Positions 1,013-35,783 of a stretch of 35,783 bases of DNA are shown in pieces. The DNA comes from an uncultured Thiohalocapsa sp. (GTDB lineage Bacteria > Pseudomonadota > Gammaproteobacteria > Chromatiales > Chromatiaceae). The position numbers and the translations under genes were made by a program. The notes beneath the pieces were generated by a model. It saw only the letters and a list, made by a program, of their open reading frames with translations. It was not told the DNA's origin and ran no database searches. The stretch is taken from NCBI RefSeq assembly GCF_913063425.1, contig NZ_CAJXYK010000054.1, forward strand, positions 1 through 35,783, given 5' to 3'. How positions within the stretch are numbered: position 1 is the first letter of the stretch; each line of letters opens with the position of its first letter.

Positions 1013-1576
1013 TCAACCTCCACGCGCCGCACTGCCGAAGGGCCACTCCTCCGCCCGCGCCGCAAGCCGCGCCTTGACCGGGTTCTGCGCGATGTAGCGG
1101 CGCACGGCGGCGAGGTGCCTGTCGTCTCTGATGTAGCGGTCGAAGTACTCCCGGTCCCAAAACTCACCCTCCCGGTGGAGCAATGGGTTTGCCTCGCGGG
1201 CGGTGAAGGCCTTCCAGCTCTGGATGACCTTGGCCAGCGGATGATCCGGAACGGTCTCGATGAGCACGTGCACGTGATTCGGCATCACCACCCAGCTGAG
1301 CAGCCGATAGCGCGTGCCATCGAAATGCAGCAGCGCCGTCTCCACCAGGCGCGCGATGTCCGGGCGCCGCAGCCAGCAGGCGCCGCGACCGTTGTCCAGA
1401 TACTGCTCGATGCGCTTGCGCCGCGCCGCCTCGTCGCCGCGCGTCTGCGCGCGGATGCGCCCCAAAACCGCCGCCGGCAGCGAGTCCCCCAGCCGAAAGG
1501 TGATGAACTGCAACAGCCCCGGGCAATCCAGGTGCGGCAGATAGCCGCGGGAGTACCAGCCCTTCGGCTCAAGCAT
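1013..1576 (-). CDS. REP-associated tyrosine transposase (RAYT), Y1/HUH family
   Basis: This is a 187-residue single-strand DNA transposase of the IS200-like/RAYT group. Such enzymes nick and join hairpin-bearing REP sequences through a tyrosine-DNA link. The HUH metal-binding motif is visible at residues 101-103 (VMPNHVHVLIE). The catalytic helix region contains Tyr148 and Tyr161 (FDRYIRD and RRYIAQNPVKA, a signature of this family). The length fits a full Y1 domain, so it looks intact. The ATG at 1576 was chosen because GGAGGA lies 8-9 nt upstream; longer frames only read into repeat units. The gene sits exactly between hairpin arrays A and B, which are its probable substrates. The arrays also flank the restriction-modification gene downstream of array B. 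Confidence 0.87.
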   Translation of the reverse strand: MLEPKGWYSRGYLPHLDCPGLLQFITFRLGDSLPAAVLGRIRAQTRGDEAARRKRIEQYLDNGRGACWLRRPDIARLVETALLHFDGTRYRLLSWVVMPNHVHVLIETVPDHPLAKVIQSWKAFTAREANPLLHREGEFWDREYFDRYIRDDRHLAAVRRYIAQNPVKARLAARAEEWPFGSAARGG

Positions 1577-1650
1577 GGCATGCTCCTCCAAGCCCAATAA
1601 CCACCCAGCGGCAGACACCCGACCAACCGACGCCCCCGGGACGCCGCCGC

Positions 1651-2010
1651 CTCGGGCCGCCGAGCTCCACTCGGCAAACCCTGGGGCCGCCGAGCTCCAC
1701 TCGGCAAACCCCGGGGCCGCCGAGCTCCACTCGGCAAACCCCGGGGCCGCCGAGCTCCACTCGGCAAACCCTGGGGCCGCCAAGTTCCACTCGGCAAACC
1801 CTGGGGGCGCCGAGTTTCACTCGGCGATCCCTGGGGGCGCCGAGTTTCACTCGGCAATCCCTGGGGGCGCCGAGTTTCACTCGGCAATCCTGGGGGCGCC
1901 GAGTTTCACTCGGCGATCCTGGGGGCGCCGAGTTTCACTCGGCGATCCCTGGGGGCGCCGAGTTTCACTCGGCGATCCCTGGGGGCGCCGAGTTCCACTC
2001 GGCGATCCCG
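1651..2010. repeat. Hairpin repeat array B (12 units)
   Basis: Twelve units repeat every 29-30 bp in the same orientation as array A. They fall in two blocks: the first five carry GGGGCCGCC before the hairpin, the last seven GGGGGCGCC. One unit (near 1772-1800) has GCCAAG in place of GCCGAG, which weakens its stem. The array lies 75 bp upstream of the transposase start codon. Confidence 0.9.
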
Positions 2011-2331: not shown

Positions 2332-5300
2332 TCAGGCGGCGTAGCGGCCGGGCTCGGGCTGCTGGACCTGGCCGAGGGCTTCCAGGGTCTCCAGCAGCTC
2401 GGCGACCTGGGTGGTGCGGGCGCGCTTGAACTGGCGGGCGATGTGCTCGGCGTCGGCGGGGGCGGGCTGGTCCGCGAGCACGGCGCGCACGGCCTGGAAC
2501 TGGGCGGGCAGGGTCTTGGGCCAGGGGGCCTTGGCGGCGGCGGCGGGCGCCGCGGCGGCGACGGCGACGTCGGCGGCGGCCTGCTCGGTGCCGGCGCCGG
2601 TGGGGTTCTGGAAGTCGGGCCGCAGCCACGCGACCCGTCCGCGGGCCTCTTCGGCGGCGCGCTCGCGGTTCAGCGCCACCAGGCGGGTGAGCAGGTCTTC
2701 CTCTGCCGCGGCCTGCTCGGCGGGCTTGTCCGGCCAGGGCGTGGTGCCGCCGGGGCGGCCCACCAGGGCCGGGGCGAGGTCGGCCCAGCCGTAGGCGGCG
2801 AGCACGGCGGCGTCCAGCTCGTCGTGGAGCTGGGCGAGCACGGACACCAGGCCCTGGTCGTGGACCTTGCGCTCTTTGGGCGTGAGCGGCGGCTCGCCCG
2901 GCACATGCGCGATGCGGCGCAGGCGCTCCAGGACGTTGTAGACGTTGGTCAGCGTCAGGTCGGGGTGGAGGGCCTGTTGGCGCTTGCGGTGGGTGTCGAT
3001 CTGCTCACCCAGCCGCGCGATGGTGGCGGCGGAGTCGGATGGGCTCTGGTCGCTGCCTCCCTCCGCCTGGGGATTCGATGCGGCAGCCGCGGGGGTGTCG
3101 GCGCCGACAGCCGCTGGATTGCGCCTGGCGCCCTCGCGGCGGAGCGGGAAGGGGAAGGTCTCAAAGCATTCGCTCTTCGGGTAGACTGGTCGATCTTCAA
3201 GTAAGCTCCCGGACCGGAGCGCCCAAATCACATGGACGCGACTAGAAAGAACGCCGAGATGCCACGCGCCCTCGATTGCAATGCTGACGAGCTTGTTATC
3301 AGGCAGGATGGAGTGGTCGAGGGAAACAAAAAAGCGGTGCTTGCTGGTCTCGACCGTAGCGATGTAGTGGCGTAGACCATCCATAGCCGGGCGCATATCG
3401 CTGCGGGGCTCACCAAAAATCCACCAGTTATCGCGGTAGGTGGCGCGTCGGTTCTGATCCCGCTCCGGCTTCACCCGCTCATACACCCACTGGTACACCT
3501 CTGGAAAGCGCCGCCGGACCTCGTCCGCATCCAGCCCGAACAGGTCGATGACCATGACACCCCGCGGGGTCGCTGTCAGATCACGCCCATTGCGGTATTC
3601 GCGGATATGGCGCTCCAGACCCGGAATGCGGCCGAGGCCGAGCTGCTTCGCCTGTTCGGGACTGACGATGAAGCCGGAGCCGATGAGCTGAACACCGCGC
3701 GAGCTGATGCCGCCGTTGGCCAAGAGGGGAGACGCTGAGGCGATATCCGCCCCAACGGTCAAATCCGAGAAGATCACCCCCTCGCGCTTCTTCAGCTCCA
3801 CGTCCAGCCCCTCGCCACCCACGGACCGCTCCGCGGTCACGGTGCGCAGCTCCCCGGGCTCGCTGCCCGGCTGGCCGACGGTCATCGCGATGCGCACGGC
3901 GGCGCCGTCCGCAGTGTCCACCCAGGGGTGATCTGCAATGGCAAAGGCGAGCGACAGCGGCTGCTTCTGCGCCATGTGATGGGCGATGACGCGCCGGTTG
4001 AAGGTCTGGCGCAGGCTGTTGGTGGTGATGAGGCCGAAGCGCTGGAGCTTGCCGGTGCGCACGAGCCCGGCGGCCTTGTGCCACCAGTGCATCACGTAGT
4101 CGGCGGACTCGGGGACCTGGGGGTAGGCGCCGCGCAGGGCCTCCACATAGCCGTCGCCGAGGGCGCGGCGCATGGTGCTGGCGCCGATGAAGGGCGGATT
4201 CCCCACCACGAAGTCGGCCTCCGGCCAGTCCGCCGGGCGCGGATTCACACAGCGCTCCACCGCCACCCGCGCGGCCTCGTCCGGCACGGGCTCGCCGGTG
4301 ACGGGGTGGGGCTTGGTGGTGCGGCCGTCCCAGCGGGTGACGGGGCGGCCGGCGGCGTCGGTCTCGAAGGCGATGTCGTCCCAGGCGAGCACCGCGTCGC
4401 GGCACTGGATGTTGTGGGCGTCCTTGAGCAGGGGCTCCCGGGGCGGGGTCTTGGCGTAGGTGCGGAAGTGCCATTGCAGGTAGCCGATCCAGAGCACGGT
4501 GTCGGCGATGCGGGCGGCGCGGGGGTTGGTCTCCAGGCCCAGCATCTGTTCCGGGCTGACGGTGCCGCCCTCCAGCTCCAGCCCCTGCTGGGTGTCGCCG
4601 AGGTCCGCGAGGGCCTCCAGCACCTCGCCCTCCAGGCGCTTCAGGTGCTCCAGGGTCACGTACAGGAAATTGCCGCTGCCGCAGGCCGAGTCCAGCACGC
4701 GCAGGGTGCAGAGGCGGTGGTGGAAGGCGCGCACCTGCTCGATGGCCTGGTGGCGCTTGCCGTCCTGGTCCAGGCGGTAGGCGCTGGCCTGCACATTGGC
4801 CCATTCGCTGCGCAGGGGCTCGATGACGGTGGGCAGCACCAGGCGCTCCACATAGGCGCGCGGGGTGTAGTGGGCGCCGAGCTTGTGGCGCTCCACGGGG
4901 TCCAGGGCGCGCTCCAGCAGGGTGCCGAAGATGGCGGGCTCCACCTCTTTCCAGTCGGCGCGGGCGGCGTCAATCAGCAGGTCGATCTGCTCGCGGGTGA
5001 GCGCCAGGGCCTGGGGCTCGGCGAAGAGGCCGCCGTTGAAGTGCGGGATGGGCGCGCGCAGCACGCCGGAGAAGGCGGAGCCGGTGTTCATGTCCGCCCA
5101 GAGCTGGCGCAGCAGGTGCGGCAGGTGGTCCGGGTCGTTGCGCATGTCCTGGAGCAGCTGGCTGAAGGCGCGCTCGGGCAGCAGGCCCACGTCCTCCGCG
5201 AACATGGTGAAGAGGCAGCGCATCAGAAAGCCGGCCACCTGCTCCGGGTGGTGGCCGGCCGCCGCGCCGGGGCCGCCCTCCAGGGACTTGGCGAGCCGGG

Positions 5301-5925
5301 CGAGCTTGGCGGAGACCTCGCGCGTGACCCGGGCGCTGCGCCGGGCCGGGTCCAGCGACAGCGGGTCCAGCCAGATGGCGCGCAGGCGCTCGCGGATCTC
5401 GGCGCGGCGCAGGTCTGTGAGGTAGATCCGGTGCGAGAGGGCGTCCGGATACGGAATGTAGTTGGCGGCGGAGCGGGTGAAGTCGGCATAGACGCCGATG
5501 TGGCGGCCGACGTCCATCACCAGCAGGAAGGGCGGGCGGCCTTCTTCCGCCGGCAGGGCGCGGGCGTAGTTGCTGCCCTGGGCGTGGGCCCTGAGCATGG
5601 CCGCGTCCCAGGCGGTGGACTGCACCGCCAGGCCGGACTGCTTGGCCTCCAGCAGGAAGCAGATGCGCTTGTAGCAGTCGATGCGCCCGGTGCTGGTGCT
5701 GCCGTCCGGGTGGTGGAAGGTGACGCGGCGCTCGAAGACGTAGGCGTTCTGCGTCTGGTCGGCCTGGGCCGGGTCCGGCGACGGCAGGCCGAGCAGCGCC
5801 GTCAGCTCGGTGACGAAGAGCTGGTAGTTGGCCAGCTCCGAGCCGTCCGCACGCTGCCAGCGGGCGATGAAGGCGTCGACGGCGGCTGGGCTCGGCTCCG
5901 CGGCGGCGGCGTCCTGTGGGGGCAT
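2332..5925 (-). CDS. Type IIL (MmeI-like) restriction-modification enzyme
   Basis: This 1197-residue protein fuses a nuclease, an adenine-type DNA methyltransferase and a target-recognition region in one chain. Asp83, then nine residues, then Glu93-Ala-Lys95 ([17 protein letters not shown]) match the D-X9-EXK nuclease motif of MmeI. A helical spacer includes GAHYTPR at 350-356. SAM-binding motif I is [11 protein letters not shown] (412-422) and catalytic motif IV is NPPF (576-579). The region from about 700 to 930 is the probable target-recognition domain. The C-terminal 250 residues are longer than in MmeI and end in a predicted winged-helix-like segment ([20 protein letters not shown]). All key motifs are intact. 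Hairpin arrays flank it on both sides (C and D), suggesting a defence island bounded by repeats. A methyltransferase-only role is the main alternative. Confidence 0.82.
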
Positions 5926-32148: not shown

Positions 32149-33702
32149 TCAGCCGCCCAGCGTCTCCACGTCGAAGCCCACCACACGGCGCTGCTCGCGG
32201 CTGAATTCGACGCCGATGAGTTGGATCGGCTCGCCGCTGCCGCGGTGGCGGTCGGCGTAGCCCTTGGCCTTCAATTGCGCCAGCGCGCCCCCGTCCGGTG
32301 CCAGCTCGACCACTTTGAATTCGAACAGGTACACCTGGCCGTTGAAGCGCAGGGCCATGTCGAGCCGCCCGGCGTTGCTCGACTCCTCCGGGGTCAGATC
32401 AACTCCTAAGCTCGCGAAGTAGGCGTAGAAGACGCTGGCGTAGTAGCCCTCGTACCTCGCGATGGGGTTGTTGCGGTACCAGTCGTGGGGGATGCTCGCG
32501 AAGAACGCGGTGAACAGTTGCTGCATGCCGCTGAAGTCGTTGGCCTGCAGCAGCGCATAGAGCTGGCCGGTCTGGCGCGGGATCTCGGAATGGCCGCCGC
32601 CCAGGCGGTCGAGCAGCGCGGCGTTGAGCGCGGCGCGCACCTCCAGATTGGGATAGCGCAGGCGGTATTGGATGAAGGCGCCGGCGCGCTGCACGCGGTC
32701 GATGGTCAGATAGCCGGTCTGCCACAGCAGCGCCTCGGTGGTGATGCGCTCCACGTCGAAGGCGCCGAGCAGCTGCTCGGTGGTGAGCAGGTGCTCCAGG
32801 CGCGGCAGGTCGGTGTGGCGCTCGGTGAGCACGTCGACCAGGAAGGTCGGCGTGGCGGTCTCGAACCACCAGGGGCGAAACTCGCGCTCCTGGAACAACA
32901 ACAACAGATCGAATGGGTTATAGACGGCAGCGCCGGTCCAGTTGTAGCCGTTGTACCAGGTGCGGATCTGATCCCGGTCGAGCCCGGTCAGCTCCGGCGA
33001 AAAGACCTGGTCCAGATCGCCCTCGGTGTAGCCGCAGATCGCCGAATACTCCGCCGAGACGGTGATGTCGCGCAGGTTGTTGAGCCCCGAGAACAAGCTG
33101 ACCTTGCTGAACTTGCTCACCCCGGTCAGGAACGCAAAGCGGATGTGGGCATCGTTGTCCTTGATGACGGAATACAGGTTGCGCAGCCCGTCGCGGGCCT
33201 CGCGGGCGACGTCCGGCCGAGTCAGGTTGTCGAGGATCGGCTTGTCGTACTCGTCCACCAGCACGACGACACGCTCGCCGTGCTCGGCATGGGCGCGGGC
33301 GATGAGCTCGGCGAAGCAGCCCACCGGGTCGTCTGGGTCGCGACAGGGGAGCCCCAGGCGCTCGGCATTGTCGTGCAGCAGCGCCCGGATGCGCCGGTCC
33401 AGCTCGGCGCGGCTCTGCACGACGCCGCCGCCGAAGCTGAGCCGAATGACCGGAAAGCGCCGGCCCCAGTCCCAGCGAGCGTGTGCCTGAAGGCCCCGAA
33501 ACAGCTCTTCGGTGCCGCTGAAGAGCTCCGCCAGCGTGTCCAGGAACAGCGACTTGCCGAAACGCCGCGGGCGCGACAGGAAATAATGCGTGCCTTCTTC
33601 GACCAGGCGCAGCGCAAAGCCTGTCTTGTCGACGTAATAGCAGCCGTCCTCGCGGATCTTGCGGAAGGTCTGGATGCCGATGGGCAGGCGTTTGCGGGGC
33701 AT
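32149..33702 (-). CDS. AAA-ATPase-like / PD-(D/E)XK nuclease-like protein (DUF1703 type)
   Basis: This 517-residue protein has the typical opening of the 'AAA-ATPase-like' family (LPIGIQTFRKIREDGCYYVDKT). It has an atypical Walker A (RPRRFGKS, 44-51), a Walker B (VVVLVDEYDKP, 145-155) and the sensor-like segment FLTGVSKFSKVSLFSGLNNL. A PD-(D/E)XK nuclease-like domain lies at the C-terminus (GRLDMALRF, then YLFEFKVVE, about 456-477). The family is abundant and multi-copy in bacteria with large genomes. Its role is not established, though mobile-element or defence functions are often suggested. All motifs are intact. It stands alone, flanked by repeats on its 3' side and a gene-free stretch on its 5' side. 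Confidence 0.87.
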   Translation of the reverse strand: MPRKRLPIGIQTFRKIREDGCYYVDKTGFALRLVEEGTHYFLSRPRRFGKSLFLDTLAELFSGTEELFRGLQAHARWDWGRRFPVIRLSFGGGVVQSRAELDRRIRALLHDNAERLGLPCRDPDDPVGCFAELIARAHAEHGERVVVLVDEYDKPILDNLTRPDVAREARDGLRNLYSVIKDNDAHIRFAFLTGVSKFSKVSLFSGLNNLRDITVSAEYSAICGYTEGDLDQVFSPELTGLDRDQIRTWYNGYNWTGAAVYNPFDLLLLFQEREFRPWWFETATPTFLVDVLTERHTDLPRLEHLLTTEQLLGAFDVERITTEALLWQTGYLTIDRVQRAGAFIQYRLRYPNLEVRAALNAALLDRLGGGHSEIPRQTGQLYALLQANDFSGMQQLFTAFFASIPHDWYRNNPIARYEGYYASVFYAYFASLGVDLTPEESSNAGRLDMALRFNGQVYLFEFKVVELAPDGGALAQLKAKGYADRHRGSGEPIQLIGVEFSREQRRVVGFDVETLGG

Positions 33703-34194
33703 GGCGGCGGAACGGGGTGCGGCGGTGGCGCCCCCAGTCTAGCGCGCCTGCCGCAGCGTGGCGCCGGCAGCCCGCCGGCGATGCCGCGCCAGCCGACCTG
33801 CCGGACGGCTGCGGCAGCGGCTGCCCGCTCATCGGCACCCGTCCCGCCCGCCTCAACGTGCGACCGATGCCGACCGTGTCAACGCCCCATCCCGGGCAAG
33901 CAAGTCGAGCCCGAGCGGCTGCACTCGGCCGTGCCTGCGCGGCTGCCGGCGGCAGCGCAAAAAAATTCCTCTCGCAACCCTTTGCTCGGGCGATCGGTTT
34001 CCGCCGCGTACAACTTTCGTGCAATTTACCGCCCCGCGCCGGGGTGATAAAACCGCCGACGGCCGGGTGTCGGGAGCTTCAGAAAGCCGTCCGCCCTGGC
34101 CAATCCCGTTGAGTCCGGAGCAACAGCGGAGGCGGACGCCTTTACTCACGCTTGGCACGAGCGTCCACATCAACAAGGGCCACACCCACGCGCG
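33703..34194. other. Intergenic region upstream of the PD-(D/E)XK gene
   Basis: I see no supported gene here. An A-rich patch (CAAAAAAATTCC near 33958-33969) and a drop in GC around 33955-34030 stand out from the surroundings and may mark a promoter or an insertion scar. Nothing else is identifiable. Confidence 0.5.
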
Positions 34195-34195
34195 C

Positions 34196-34786
34196 GGAAC
34201 GGGGTCAGTTCTCGCGCGGAACGGGGTCAGTCTCGCGGAATGGGGTCAGCGCGGAACGGGGTCAGTTCTCGCGTTGTTGGAACGCGGAACGGGGTCAGTT
34301 CTCGTGCGGAACGGGGTCAGTTCTCGTGCGGAACGGGGTCAGCGTGCGGAACGGGGTCAGTTCTCGCGTTGTTGCATCGCGGGGAACGGGGTCAGTTCTC
34401 CTGCGGAACGGGGTCCGCAGCGGAACGGGGTCAGTTCTCGCGTTGTTGCATCGCGGGGAACGGGGTCAGTTCTCCGGGGGAACGCAGCGGGGGAACGGGG
34501 TCAGGGGGGAACGAGGGGAACGGGGTCAGTTCTCGGGAACGGGGTCAGTTCTCGCGTTGTTGCATAGCATCGGAAAGGCGGAACGGGGTCAGTTCTCGCG
34601 TTGTTGCATCGCGTCGCGGGACGGGGTCCGCGGGACCGCGAGGACACGGGGTCAGTTCTCGCGCGAGGACACGGGGTCAGCGCGAGGACACGGGGTCAGT
34701 TCTCGCGTTGTTGCATCGAGGCGGCGAGGACACGGGGTCGGCGAGGACAGGGGGTCAGTTCTCGCGTTGTTGCATCGAGGCGCGGA
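34196..34786 (-). repeat. Array of repeats copied from the 3' end of the adjacent transposase gene
   Basis: About 22 occurrences of GGGGTC(A)G lie here. Seven extend through GGTCAGTTCTCGCGTTGTTG; the others stop early, at GTTCTCGCG, GTTCTC or just after GGTCAG. The rightmost unit is part of the transposase gene: its complement encodes the last residues SMQQREN and the TGA stop. The unit near 34697-34730 matches the gene end for over 30 bp. Lengths and spacings are irregular and there are no unique spacers. Confidence 0.9.
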
Positions 34787-35603
34787 CGATCCGTCCGACC
34801 GTCGAGAGATGGATGCCGAAATGCGCGGCGATGGTTGCGTAGCTGTAGGCGCCGGTCGCGTAAGCTGTCGCAATGGCCGCGTTGCGGTCCGGTTGGGCCG
34901 CCGCGATGTCCGCCAACGTGGGCGGTGGTGGACGCCGCTGGATCTTGGGCACACTCAGACGGTCGCCTTGGATACTCGCCAACGCCTGCATCTTCTCCAC
35001 GAAGGTTTCGTCTCCGAGGTAAACCTGCTGGCGCAAGTTCTGCCAGACGTTGCGCCCGAGTCCTTCGAGAACGAATCTCTTGTAGCGTGCCTGTGCGCGC
35101 TCGCGATCTTCTGCGAACTGCCCCAACACGAAATCCGTCTCCAGCCACCCCGGGGGCGCGCTCTCCCCTGCCGTTACCCGATAACTGCTCCAGCACCACT
35201 GCTCCGGCGCCGTGACCATGCCGGCCCGGACGGGATTGAGCACCACGTAGCGGCTCAACTCCAGCAAATAACTGTCTTTGTCCACCAAAATCCCTTTGAA
35301 GCGCCCTTGAAACAGATGGCCCTGGCGCCCGTGACGTCGGTTCGACGACTGCGTGAACACGCCGTTGAGCTGGCGCATGCCTTTCGACAGATTGCCATCA
35401 ACCGTCTCCACGAGCAGGTGGTAATGGTTGGTCATGAGGCAGTAGGCGTGGCAGAGCCAGTTGTAACGCTCGACGACCTCCGCCAACGTGGCCAAAAACT
35501 GCTCCCGGTCGGCATCGTCCTCGTAGATCGGCTCGCGCCGGTCACCACGCGATGTCACGTGGTAGAGCGCTCCAGGAAATTCGATGCGTAGCGGTCTGGC
35601 CAT
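34755..35603 (-). CDS. REP-associated Y1/HUH transposase with C-terminal helix-turn-helix
   Basis: This 282-residue transposase starts with the family hallmark MARPLRIEFPGALYHVTSRG. The HUH motif is at 60-62 (CLMTNHYHLLVE). The tyrosine helix follows as SYLLELSRYVVLNPVRAGM (Tyr112, Tyr119). Residues about 232-275 form a helix-turn-helix (YSYATIAAHFGIHLSTVGRIVR). The final residues ASMQQREN and the stop codon coincide with one unit of the adjoining repeat array. The ATG at 35603 is the start of the intact gene. An in-frame upstream ATG at 35759 belongs to a partial duplication of the 5' end and would give a 334-residue chimera. It is unrelated in detail to the transposase at 1013-1576 and uses a different repeat. 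Confidence 0.88.
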   Translation of the reverse strand: MARPLRIEFPGALYHVTSRGDRREPIYEDDADREQFLATLAEVVERYNWLCHAYCLMTNHYHLLVETVDGNLSKGMRQLNGVFTQSSNRRHGRQGHLFQGRFKGILVDKDSYLLELSRYVVLNPVRAGMVTAPEQWCWSSYRVTAGESAPPGWLETDFVLGQFAEDRERAQARYKRFVLEGLGRNVWQNLRQQVYLGDETFVEKMQALASIQGDRLSVPKIQRRPPPPTLADIAAAQPDRNAAIATAYATGAYSYATIAAHFGIHLSTVGRIVRASMQQREN

Positions 35604-35627
35604 GTAAGAATCATAGCGCCGACGGTG
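35502..35627 (-). repeat. 5' duplication of transposase gene, inner copy
   Basis: This 126-bp segment covers codons 1-33 of the transposase and 24 bp upstream. It is repeated at 35658-35783 with two substitutions, exactly 156 bp (52 codons) apart, so the reading frame is preserved. Confidence 0.92.
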
Positions 35628-35657
35628 ACACGATGCGAGAACTGACCCCGTGCCCCC

Positions 35658-35783
35658 CTCCCGGTCGGCATCGTCCTCGTAGATCGGCTCGCGCCTGTCA
35701 CCACGTGATGTCACGTGGTAGAGCGCTCCAGGAAATTCGATGCGTAGCGGTCTGGCCATGTAAGAATCATAGCGCCGACGGTG
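35658..35783 (-). repeat. 5' duplication of transposase gene, outer copy (runs off the window)
   Basis: Second copy of 35502-35627, continuing to the window edge, so its full extent is unknown. Between the copies (35628-35657) lies GCGAGAACTGACCCCGT, one repeat unit in the orientation opposite to the array at 34196-34786. Further transposase sequence may continue outside the window. Confidence 0.9.

Follow-up and report, generated by a model that had tools for sequence, protein, structure and literature searches.

Directly downstream of a Y1 transposase gene, close to one end of a contig from an uncultured Thiohalocapsa sp., lies a dense array of short repeats that match the gene's own 3' end. 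How did the end of a coding sequence come to be copied many times over beside the gene that it terminates? A preliminary description of the contig (35,783 nucleotides, analysed in full and referred to here as the window) took the gene end itself to be a mobile unit, copied again and again from a fixed point. We suggest instead, with a probability that we would put at roughly 0.55, that the array has accumulated from partial copies of the right terminal inverted repeat (TIR) of a TIRtron, each of which includes a few neighbouring bases from outside the element, and that these copies would have originated through nicking and recopying by an HUH/Y1 enzyme.

The gene (Table 1) is a REP-associated tyrosine transposase (RAYT) of the TIRYT kind, and the array word is the TIR of its element. 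The protein matches PF01797 (1.3e-10) and scores 86.2 bits against the RAYT model NF047646, whose cut-off is 80; its C-terminal HTH-like region matches PF13384 (HTH_23) at 7e-05 and 23 bits, just under the Pfam cut-off of 24.6. Alignment identifies the HUH motif as NHYH, together with FQ and a Y motif YVVLNP; in the set that includes the relatives described below, NHYH occurs in 153 of 158 intact frames and YVVLNP or YIVLNP in 145 of 158. In the text of Quentin et al. (2018; PMC6006769), motifs of the type NH[YF]H, FQ and Y[IV]xLNP with an HTH C-terminus belong to TnpAY1 subclass 2.1, an assignment that we base on motifs rather than on that paper's own subclass profiles and with the HTH region just under its cut-off. 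By the same account the subclass is probably equivalent to the TIRYTs of Di Nocera et al. (2013; PMC3733652), whose inverted repeats, as described there, in some cases share GGGGWSAS. The window gene likewise lies between inverted TIRs, the segment 35623-35663 pairing with right-end units at 78-95%, and GGGGTCAG, which fits GGGGWSAS, is present at both of its ends. We dropped the idea of a GTAG-REP REPtron, which would carry a GTAG or GTGG foot on a dispersed hairpin; the shared word here is GGGGTCAG, and a 15-mer of the repeat occurs only at two arrays and the left TIR. A sequence search of the PDB at E 0.001 returned no match.

Table 1. Coordinates of the element and its repeats in the window.
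Feature	Position	Strand	Basis and remarks
Right-end array	34194..34782	+	22 GGGGTC cores; unit decomposition, word counts, TRF and repeat finder
Right TIR	34751..34777	-	GGGGTCAGTTCTCGCGTTGTTGCATCG on the plus strand; includes the final codons of the gene and its TGA stop
TIRYT-type Y1 transposase gene, 282 aa	34755..35603	-	PF01797, NCBIfam NF047646, alignment motifs
Left TIR	35624..35649	-	5' of the start codon, in opposite orientation to the right TIR; inverted repeats I1-I10 and 15-mer match at 35635-35649, minus strand
Partial second copy of the gene's first ~100 bases and leader	35658..35783	-	Direct repeat, 98% to 35502-35627; tblastn match 35646-35759, 89%

Alignment of the repeat units confirms the array beside the gene that had been described, with 22 GGGGTC cores on the plus strand between 34201 and 34751, complementary to the gene's 3' end. 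Within it the word GGGGTCAG occurs 19 times, GGGGTCAGTTCTC 14 times and GGGGTCAGTTCTCGCGTTGTTGCATCG five times; GGGGTCAGTTCTC is found 14 times in 34001-34800 and never on the plus strand of the remaining window. As had also been recognised, the gene's 3' end lies inside the repeat, GGGGTCAGTTCTCGCGTTGTTGCATCG being the complement of the gene's own end, CGATGCAACAACGCGAGAACTGACCCC. Each unit consists of an outside flank, mostly of the GCGGAAC or GCGAGGACAC type, joined to a variable stretch of the right TIR and the gene's 3' end. GGAAC stands directly before 15 of the 22 cores and GGACAC before four, and past the core the units run a variable distance into TTCTCGCGTTGTTGCATCG..., the complement of the gene's last codons, or end before it. 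The inner edges are graded from -1 to +25 relative to GGGGTCA^ (21 copies, the gene's own end excluded; the caret marks the edge), eight of the 21 falling within 2 nt of that point and none exactly on it. Unit decomposition therefore bears out the graded truncations, the common outer side, the variable inner side and the local build-up that had been proposed. It does not bear out copies that share only the GGGGTCAG side and begin just past the stop codon, since in 19 of the 22 the common part extends at least 5-6 nt farther outward.

The 15-mer GGGGTCAGTTCTCGC has 19 exact matches in the 5.9-Mb assembly of 117 contigs, and its reversed control has none. Nine of these matches lie in the right-end array, one beside the gene start and nine at the start of another contig, C103, so that within this assembly no dispersed copies of the 15-mer were found away from the array, the left TIR and the C103 start. 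At the gathering threshold Rfam yielded no match in the window.

At the other end of the element, the window contig (C54) carries one truncated copy of the left TIR. The left-TIR unit sits between the partial second copy of the gene's beginning and the gene's original start region, and we read that second copy as a long unit of a left-end array that is interrupted by the contig end. C103 opens with 15 cores oriented as the left TIR, 14 of which are preceded by GGGGCAC; their inner edges range from +1 to +29, four of the 15 lying within 2 nt of GGGGTCA^ and none exactly there. C103 probably adjoins the window contig, because a relative, G128, has both flanks (the window up to 33748 and C103 from 1481) collinear on one contig, about 625 bases apart, and because ACGGTG, in register with the gene leader, occurs at both contig ends. 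G128 has no match to the transposase protein at 1e-60; we considered it as an exact empty site and dropped the idea, since the two genomes differ in the sequence between the flanks. The shared word is the right TIR, and the left TIR, 5' of the start codon, is accompanied by truncated copies as well, most of them on C103, which tells against the gene end as the mobile unit.

Other repeats and genes were observed in the same window and genome. A second REP-associated tyrosine transposase (1013-1783, minus strand; 87.8 bits, NCBIfam) lies near the opposite contig end and is flanked on both sides by arrays (531-999 and 1650-2009) of 30-bp repeats with a GCCGAG...CTCGGC palindrome, which extend into the N-terminal part of its reading frame. 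On the minus strand at 2332-5925 is a 1197-aa restriction-modification enzyme with MmeI-type N-terminal, helicase-spacer, methyltransferase and target-recognition domains, which we take to be type IIL-like. An AAA-ATPase-like/PDDEXK_9 protein is encoded at 32149-33702 (minus strand), and its DNA has 10 more matches of over 600 bases in the genome at 73-80% identity. On contig C92 of this genome a TIRYT fragment (L191), matched over residues 167-275 only, is accompanied by TIR arrays at 85-400, 2240-2340 and 2790-2910, built from the fragment's own flanks. Two further loci, L169 (near 1450-1530) and L172 (near 1470-1550), hold TIRs with short flank-carrying arrays and no protein match near them; the sequence inspected there covered 400-600 bases.

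The origin of the flank within the repeats is best seen in genome G044, which has four copies of the element (L258, L259, L260 and L261) with coding sequences 97.6-98.2% identical. Near-identical paralogues at different sites attest to movement or copying, without indicating the route (the ssDNA-circle question of IS200/IS605). Aligned at their left ends, the four agree in 35-36 of the 36 bases that begin with GGGG and run inward, and in 3-12 of the 20 bases outside; this contrast puts the element's left boundary on the first G or immediately beside it. Two of the copies have clear left arrays, each made from its own flank: CAAAAC+GGGGTCA at L258 and (C)AAAAA(A)C+GGGGTCA at L259. L260 and L261 have one degenerate flank copy each on the left side. 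Because the repeats carry each site's own flank, their flank part must derive from the DNA into which the element inserted, and the arrays grow there once insertion has taken place. A fixed copying point just past the stop codon, as envisaged earlier, is difficult to reconcile with copies that carry outside flank, which on the left side in these relatives is that of the insertion site. The right ends of L259 and L261 share AATGCC just outside CCCC though they stand at different sites; local flank alone gives no explanation of this, and the common AATGCC may reflect chance, a target preference or a part of the element.

To these we added relatives from many genomes. There were 79 named loci, taken from the best 80 of 577 confirmed relatives, and further loci came from a family search (31 of 146 genomes at 1e-60), a class search (51 of 369 at 1e-80), 40 more stretches and paralogues from the window's own genome. 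The left end could be examined in 181 of the resulting 182 loci and the right end in 177. A TIR core, searched for as GGGTCAG[GT]TCT with at most two mismatches, was found at 157 left and 133 right ends; removal of repeated sequences left 266 ends, of which 263 had at least 60 nt outside. Conservation of the core among relatives was discarded as evidence, the core having been the search word. Across the 263 ends the base before the search word is G in 73% (1.0 bit), TIR positions +12 to +24 carry 0.1-0.9 bit, and the 12 outside positions carry at most 0.26 bit. There is a weak A-richness at -7 to -2 outside the TIR (A is 52% at -2), perhaps a target preference. Within one locus the left and right TIR interiors are 74% identical, compared with 41% for shuffled pairs (97 loci), and the interior covaries with the protein (Mantel r 0.42 and 0.39, 0 of 999 permutations; 97 loci). 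Covariation of the outside flank with the protein is not clear (r 0.03, 84 of 999 permutations).

The relatives also bear on why the array should match a coding sequence at all. Of 122 distinct right ends, 66 have the TGA stop within the TIR core (offset -4). In 54 others the GGGGTCAG core follows the stop, and 28 of these have the entire conserved stretch of about 25 nt on its far side; the most distant ones may not be true element ends. After the last well-aligned column the protein tail has a median of six residues in the stop-in-core group (54 proteins) and four in the rest (53). The overlap of TIR and gene end looks like compact packing and not a functional identity of enzyme and substrate, and we regard the array's match to the gene's 3' end as a by-product of a TIR that overlaps the stop codon. 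The preliminary description had proposed that the enzyme's C-terminus and the DNA substrate are one sequence; a necessary identity of the two is not supported, given the right ends whose core follows the stop. Of the two findings that the description itself named as speaking against it, copies that run past the stop codon into downstream DNA are present locally, even though dispersed copies of the 15-mer were not found, and gene 3' ends that do not match the repeats are present in those relatives.

A simple rule describes what happens at the ends of these elements. We counted an end as duplicated when, 6-129 nt farther out, there was a copy, 11 nt in total, that took in the GGGG together with 3 nt or more of flank. 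Such flank-plus-GGGG duplications occur at 75 of the 263 distinct TIR ends and at 91 of 13006 random anchors (Fisher 1.4e-85, a value that is too small because ends from the same genome were counted separately); 188 of the 263 ends lack one. The excess held in two successive sets (44 of 164 and 31 of 99; under a somewhat less strict earlier rule the count for set 1 was 45 of 164). By locus, at least one end is duplicated in 66 of 157 and both ends in nine. Of the 75 duplicated ends, 36 have their inner edge precisely at GGGGTCA^, as against seven of 101 control duplications; this junction of A and G in GGGGTCA^GGTCT is the most frequent inner edge. The outer edge varies across loci, the flank match being 4 to 11 nt in 68 of the 75. 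A family-wide fixed outer flank of 7 nt, hinted at by eye and by the GGGGCAC of C103, was dropped since flank length varies in this way; a one-nucleotide junction homology was dropped too, having appeared in 18 of 29 cases in set 1 but in two of 11 in set 2, and an inner-side control (1 of 164) was discarded, its anchor being by choice the gene-proximal copy. The 75 include neither end of the window gene: at the right end the closest copies carry a different base beside the core, and at the left end the neighbouring copies lie outside the contig or on the far side of the inserted gene fragment. Farther than 700 nt from the gene, TIR cores are duplicated in 14 of 124 cases, more rarely than beside it (p 1.5e-4, again too small because same-genome ends were counted separately), and some of these remote TIRs may belong to other transposase genes. 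At the same distance, five of 26 cores near a TIR are duplicated.

Taken at the level of sequence comparison, the relatives show an origin in place, specificity for the TIR, enrichment beside the gene and a preferred inner edge. The chemistry that could produce them is available in the wider enzyme class: HuH enzymes, as described in PMC8266576, leave a 5'P-Tyr and a 3'-OH able to prime synthesis or to attack, and the TnpAREP enzymes treated there cleave near REPs at CT, one of them at CA too. We posit that the HUH/Y1 enzyme would act on the TIR as single-stranded DNA, nicking it at GGGGTCA^GGTCT or close by and remaining on the 5' end, that synthesis from the free 3' end would copy the same short stretch again to a variable extent, and that the extended end would be rejoined to the protein-bound 5' end, yielding a tandem copy of flank and TIR. 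Repeated rounds of nicking and recopying at both ends would leave a common outer flank and graded inner edges. The window array, with its more spread edges, presumably arose by the same route. A wider and more tentative proposal is that TIRYTs are site-specific tandem-duplicating enzymes, which leave the element where it is, nick at GGGGTCA^, and then copy their own ends anew and rejoin them, the ladder of repeats being a record of past activity.

The main rival to recopying by the enzyme is ordinary replication slippage, in which a G-rich, partly self-complementary TIR stalls the polymerase and the transposase did no more than place the TIR. We consider it unlikely as an account of the whole, and possible especially for the growth of an array once two copies exist. 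It would agree with the arrays at TIR cores far from the gene (the 14 of 124 above), with a flank/TIR complementarity slightly above that of shuffled pairs (38 of 1000 shuffles as high) and with three right-end units that fold, as DNA, into short hairpins with GGGGTCA in the loop (-5.8, -6.9 and -3.1 kcal/mol). These energies are, however, unexceptional, with z between -0.9 and -1.6. Of two paralogue ends, one (z +1.5) folds worse than its shuffles, as does the left-end unit (z +0.5), and the other gives z -1.3. The hairpin was accordingly set aside as an organising feature: the right-end units fold weakly, two of three other ends are worse than shuffles and the complementarity is marginal. 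GGGTCA more than 700 nt from the gene and with no TIR within 130 nt is rarely duplicated (3 of 218, two of these being one array in L085), and slippage alone would not be expected to give a breakpoint at one and the same base in 36 of 75 ends with differing flanks.

Serial nested insertion of short TIR elements, MITE-like or REPIN-like, at the same spot, each truncated later, seems very improbable. The 124 distinct TIR cores more than 700 nt from the gene, some of them perhaps beside other transposase genes, and two TIRs with arrays in the window's genome where the protein search has no match would suit it, but such insertions would bring no local flank, and the repeats carry flank. Moreover, GGGTCA copies within 250 nt outside the ends in set 1 have predominantly the same orientation (99, against 14 opposite), and a target-site duplication of the element is absent (at least 3 nt in common in two of 106 pairs, with a shuffled mean of 2.16). 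Least probable of all is a mobile gene end, with one-ended transposition recurring from a fixed base immediately after the stop codon, for although the graded inner truncations, the common outer side and the stop codon within the core in 66 of 122 right ends speak for it, the copies include outside flank that differs between insertion sites in relatives, truncated copies lie on the gene's 5' side too, the 15-mer has no match away from the two arrays and the gene, and the core lies beyond the stop in 54 of the 122.

The proposed recopying of TIR ends in place has partial parallels in known systems. The text of Di Nocera et al. (2013; PMC3733652) describes TIRtrons as Y1 genes between inverted GGGGWSAS TIRs (GGGGTCAG here), states in a figure legend that TIRs can overlap the gene's 3' end ('3'ov'), and reports some TIR families in dimers or clusters; in that text, as distinct from the figures, we found no description of flank-carrying tandem units, of GGGGTCA^ as a preferred edge or of graded truncations. 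With TnpAY1 subclass 2.1 (2.1.2; PMC6006769) the window protein shares NHYH, FQ, a YxxLNP Y motif and an HTH_23-like C-terminus, whereas automatic and manual searches in that survey, as its text relates, found no REP-like sequences near the genes, and here there are TIR-derived arrays. The REPIN and REP tandem clusters in the text of Bertels and Rainey (2011; PMC3116915) resemble ours in being tandem, transposase-linked short elements with flanking DNA. Those, in contrast, are whole REPINs or regularly spaced REPs across the genome, and ours are units of about 10-160 nt, truncated inward, at element ends. E. coli-type TnpAREP/REPtrons and IS608 (IS200/IS605) provide, in their HUH/Y1 single-strand nickase chemistry, the model for the putative nicking step. 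They act on GTAG-tagged or subterminal hairpins, whereas here the word is GGGGTCAG, a hairpin is weak or absent in the six folded strands, and the cleavage is a proposed one. Among the titles and abstract openings listed in literature searches, with subscription journals mostly outside their scope, none describes the duplication rule, including those listed for the words CTGACCCCG and GGGGTCAG, and in the text portions consulted of PMC6006769, PMC3733652, PMC8266576 and PMC3116915 we found no report of an activity assay of a subclass 2.1 or TIRYT enzyme. As far as this literature extends, the flank-carrying duplication of TIRs is a new variation on the known TIRtron elements.

The reading that we favour predicts a nick at or near GGGGTCA^GGTCT together with in-place re-copying, and it makes the activity of TIRYTs testable. 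According to the text of Quentin et al. (2018; PMC6006769), subclass 2.1 is present in 14.9% of the strains surveyed there. If the proposed recopying is true, it would be an added route by which bacterial transposases make minisatellite-like arrays from any adjacent DNA.
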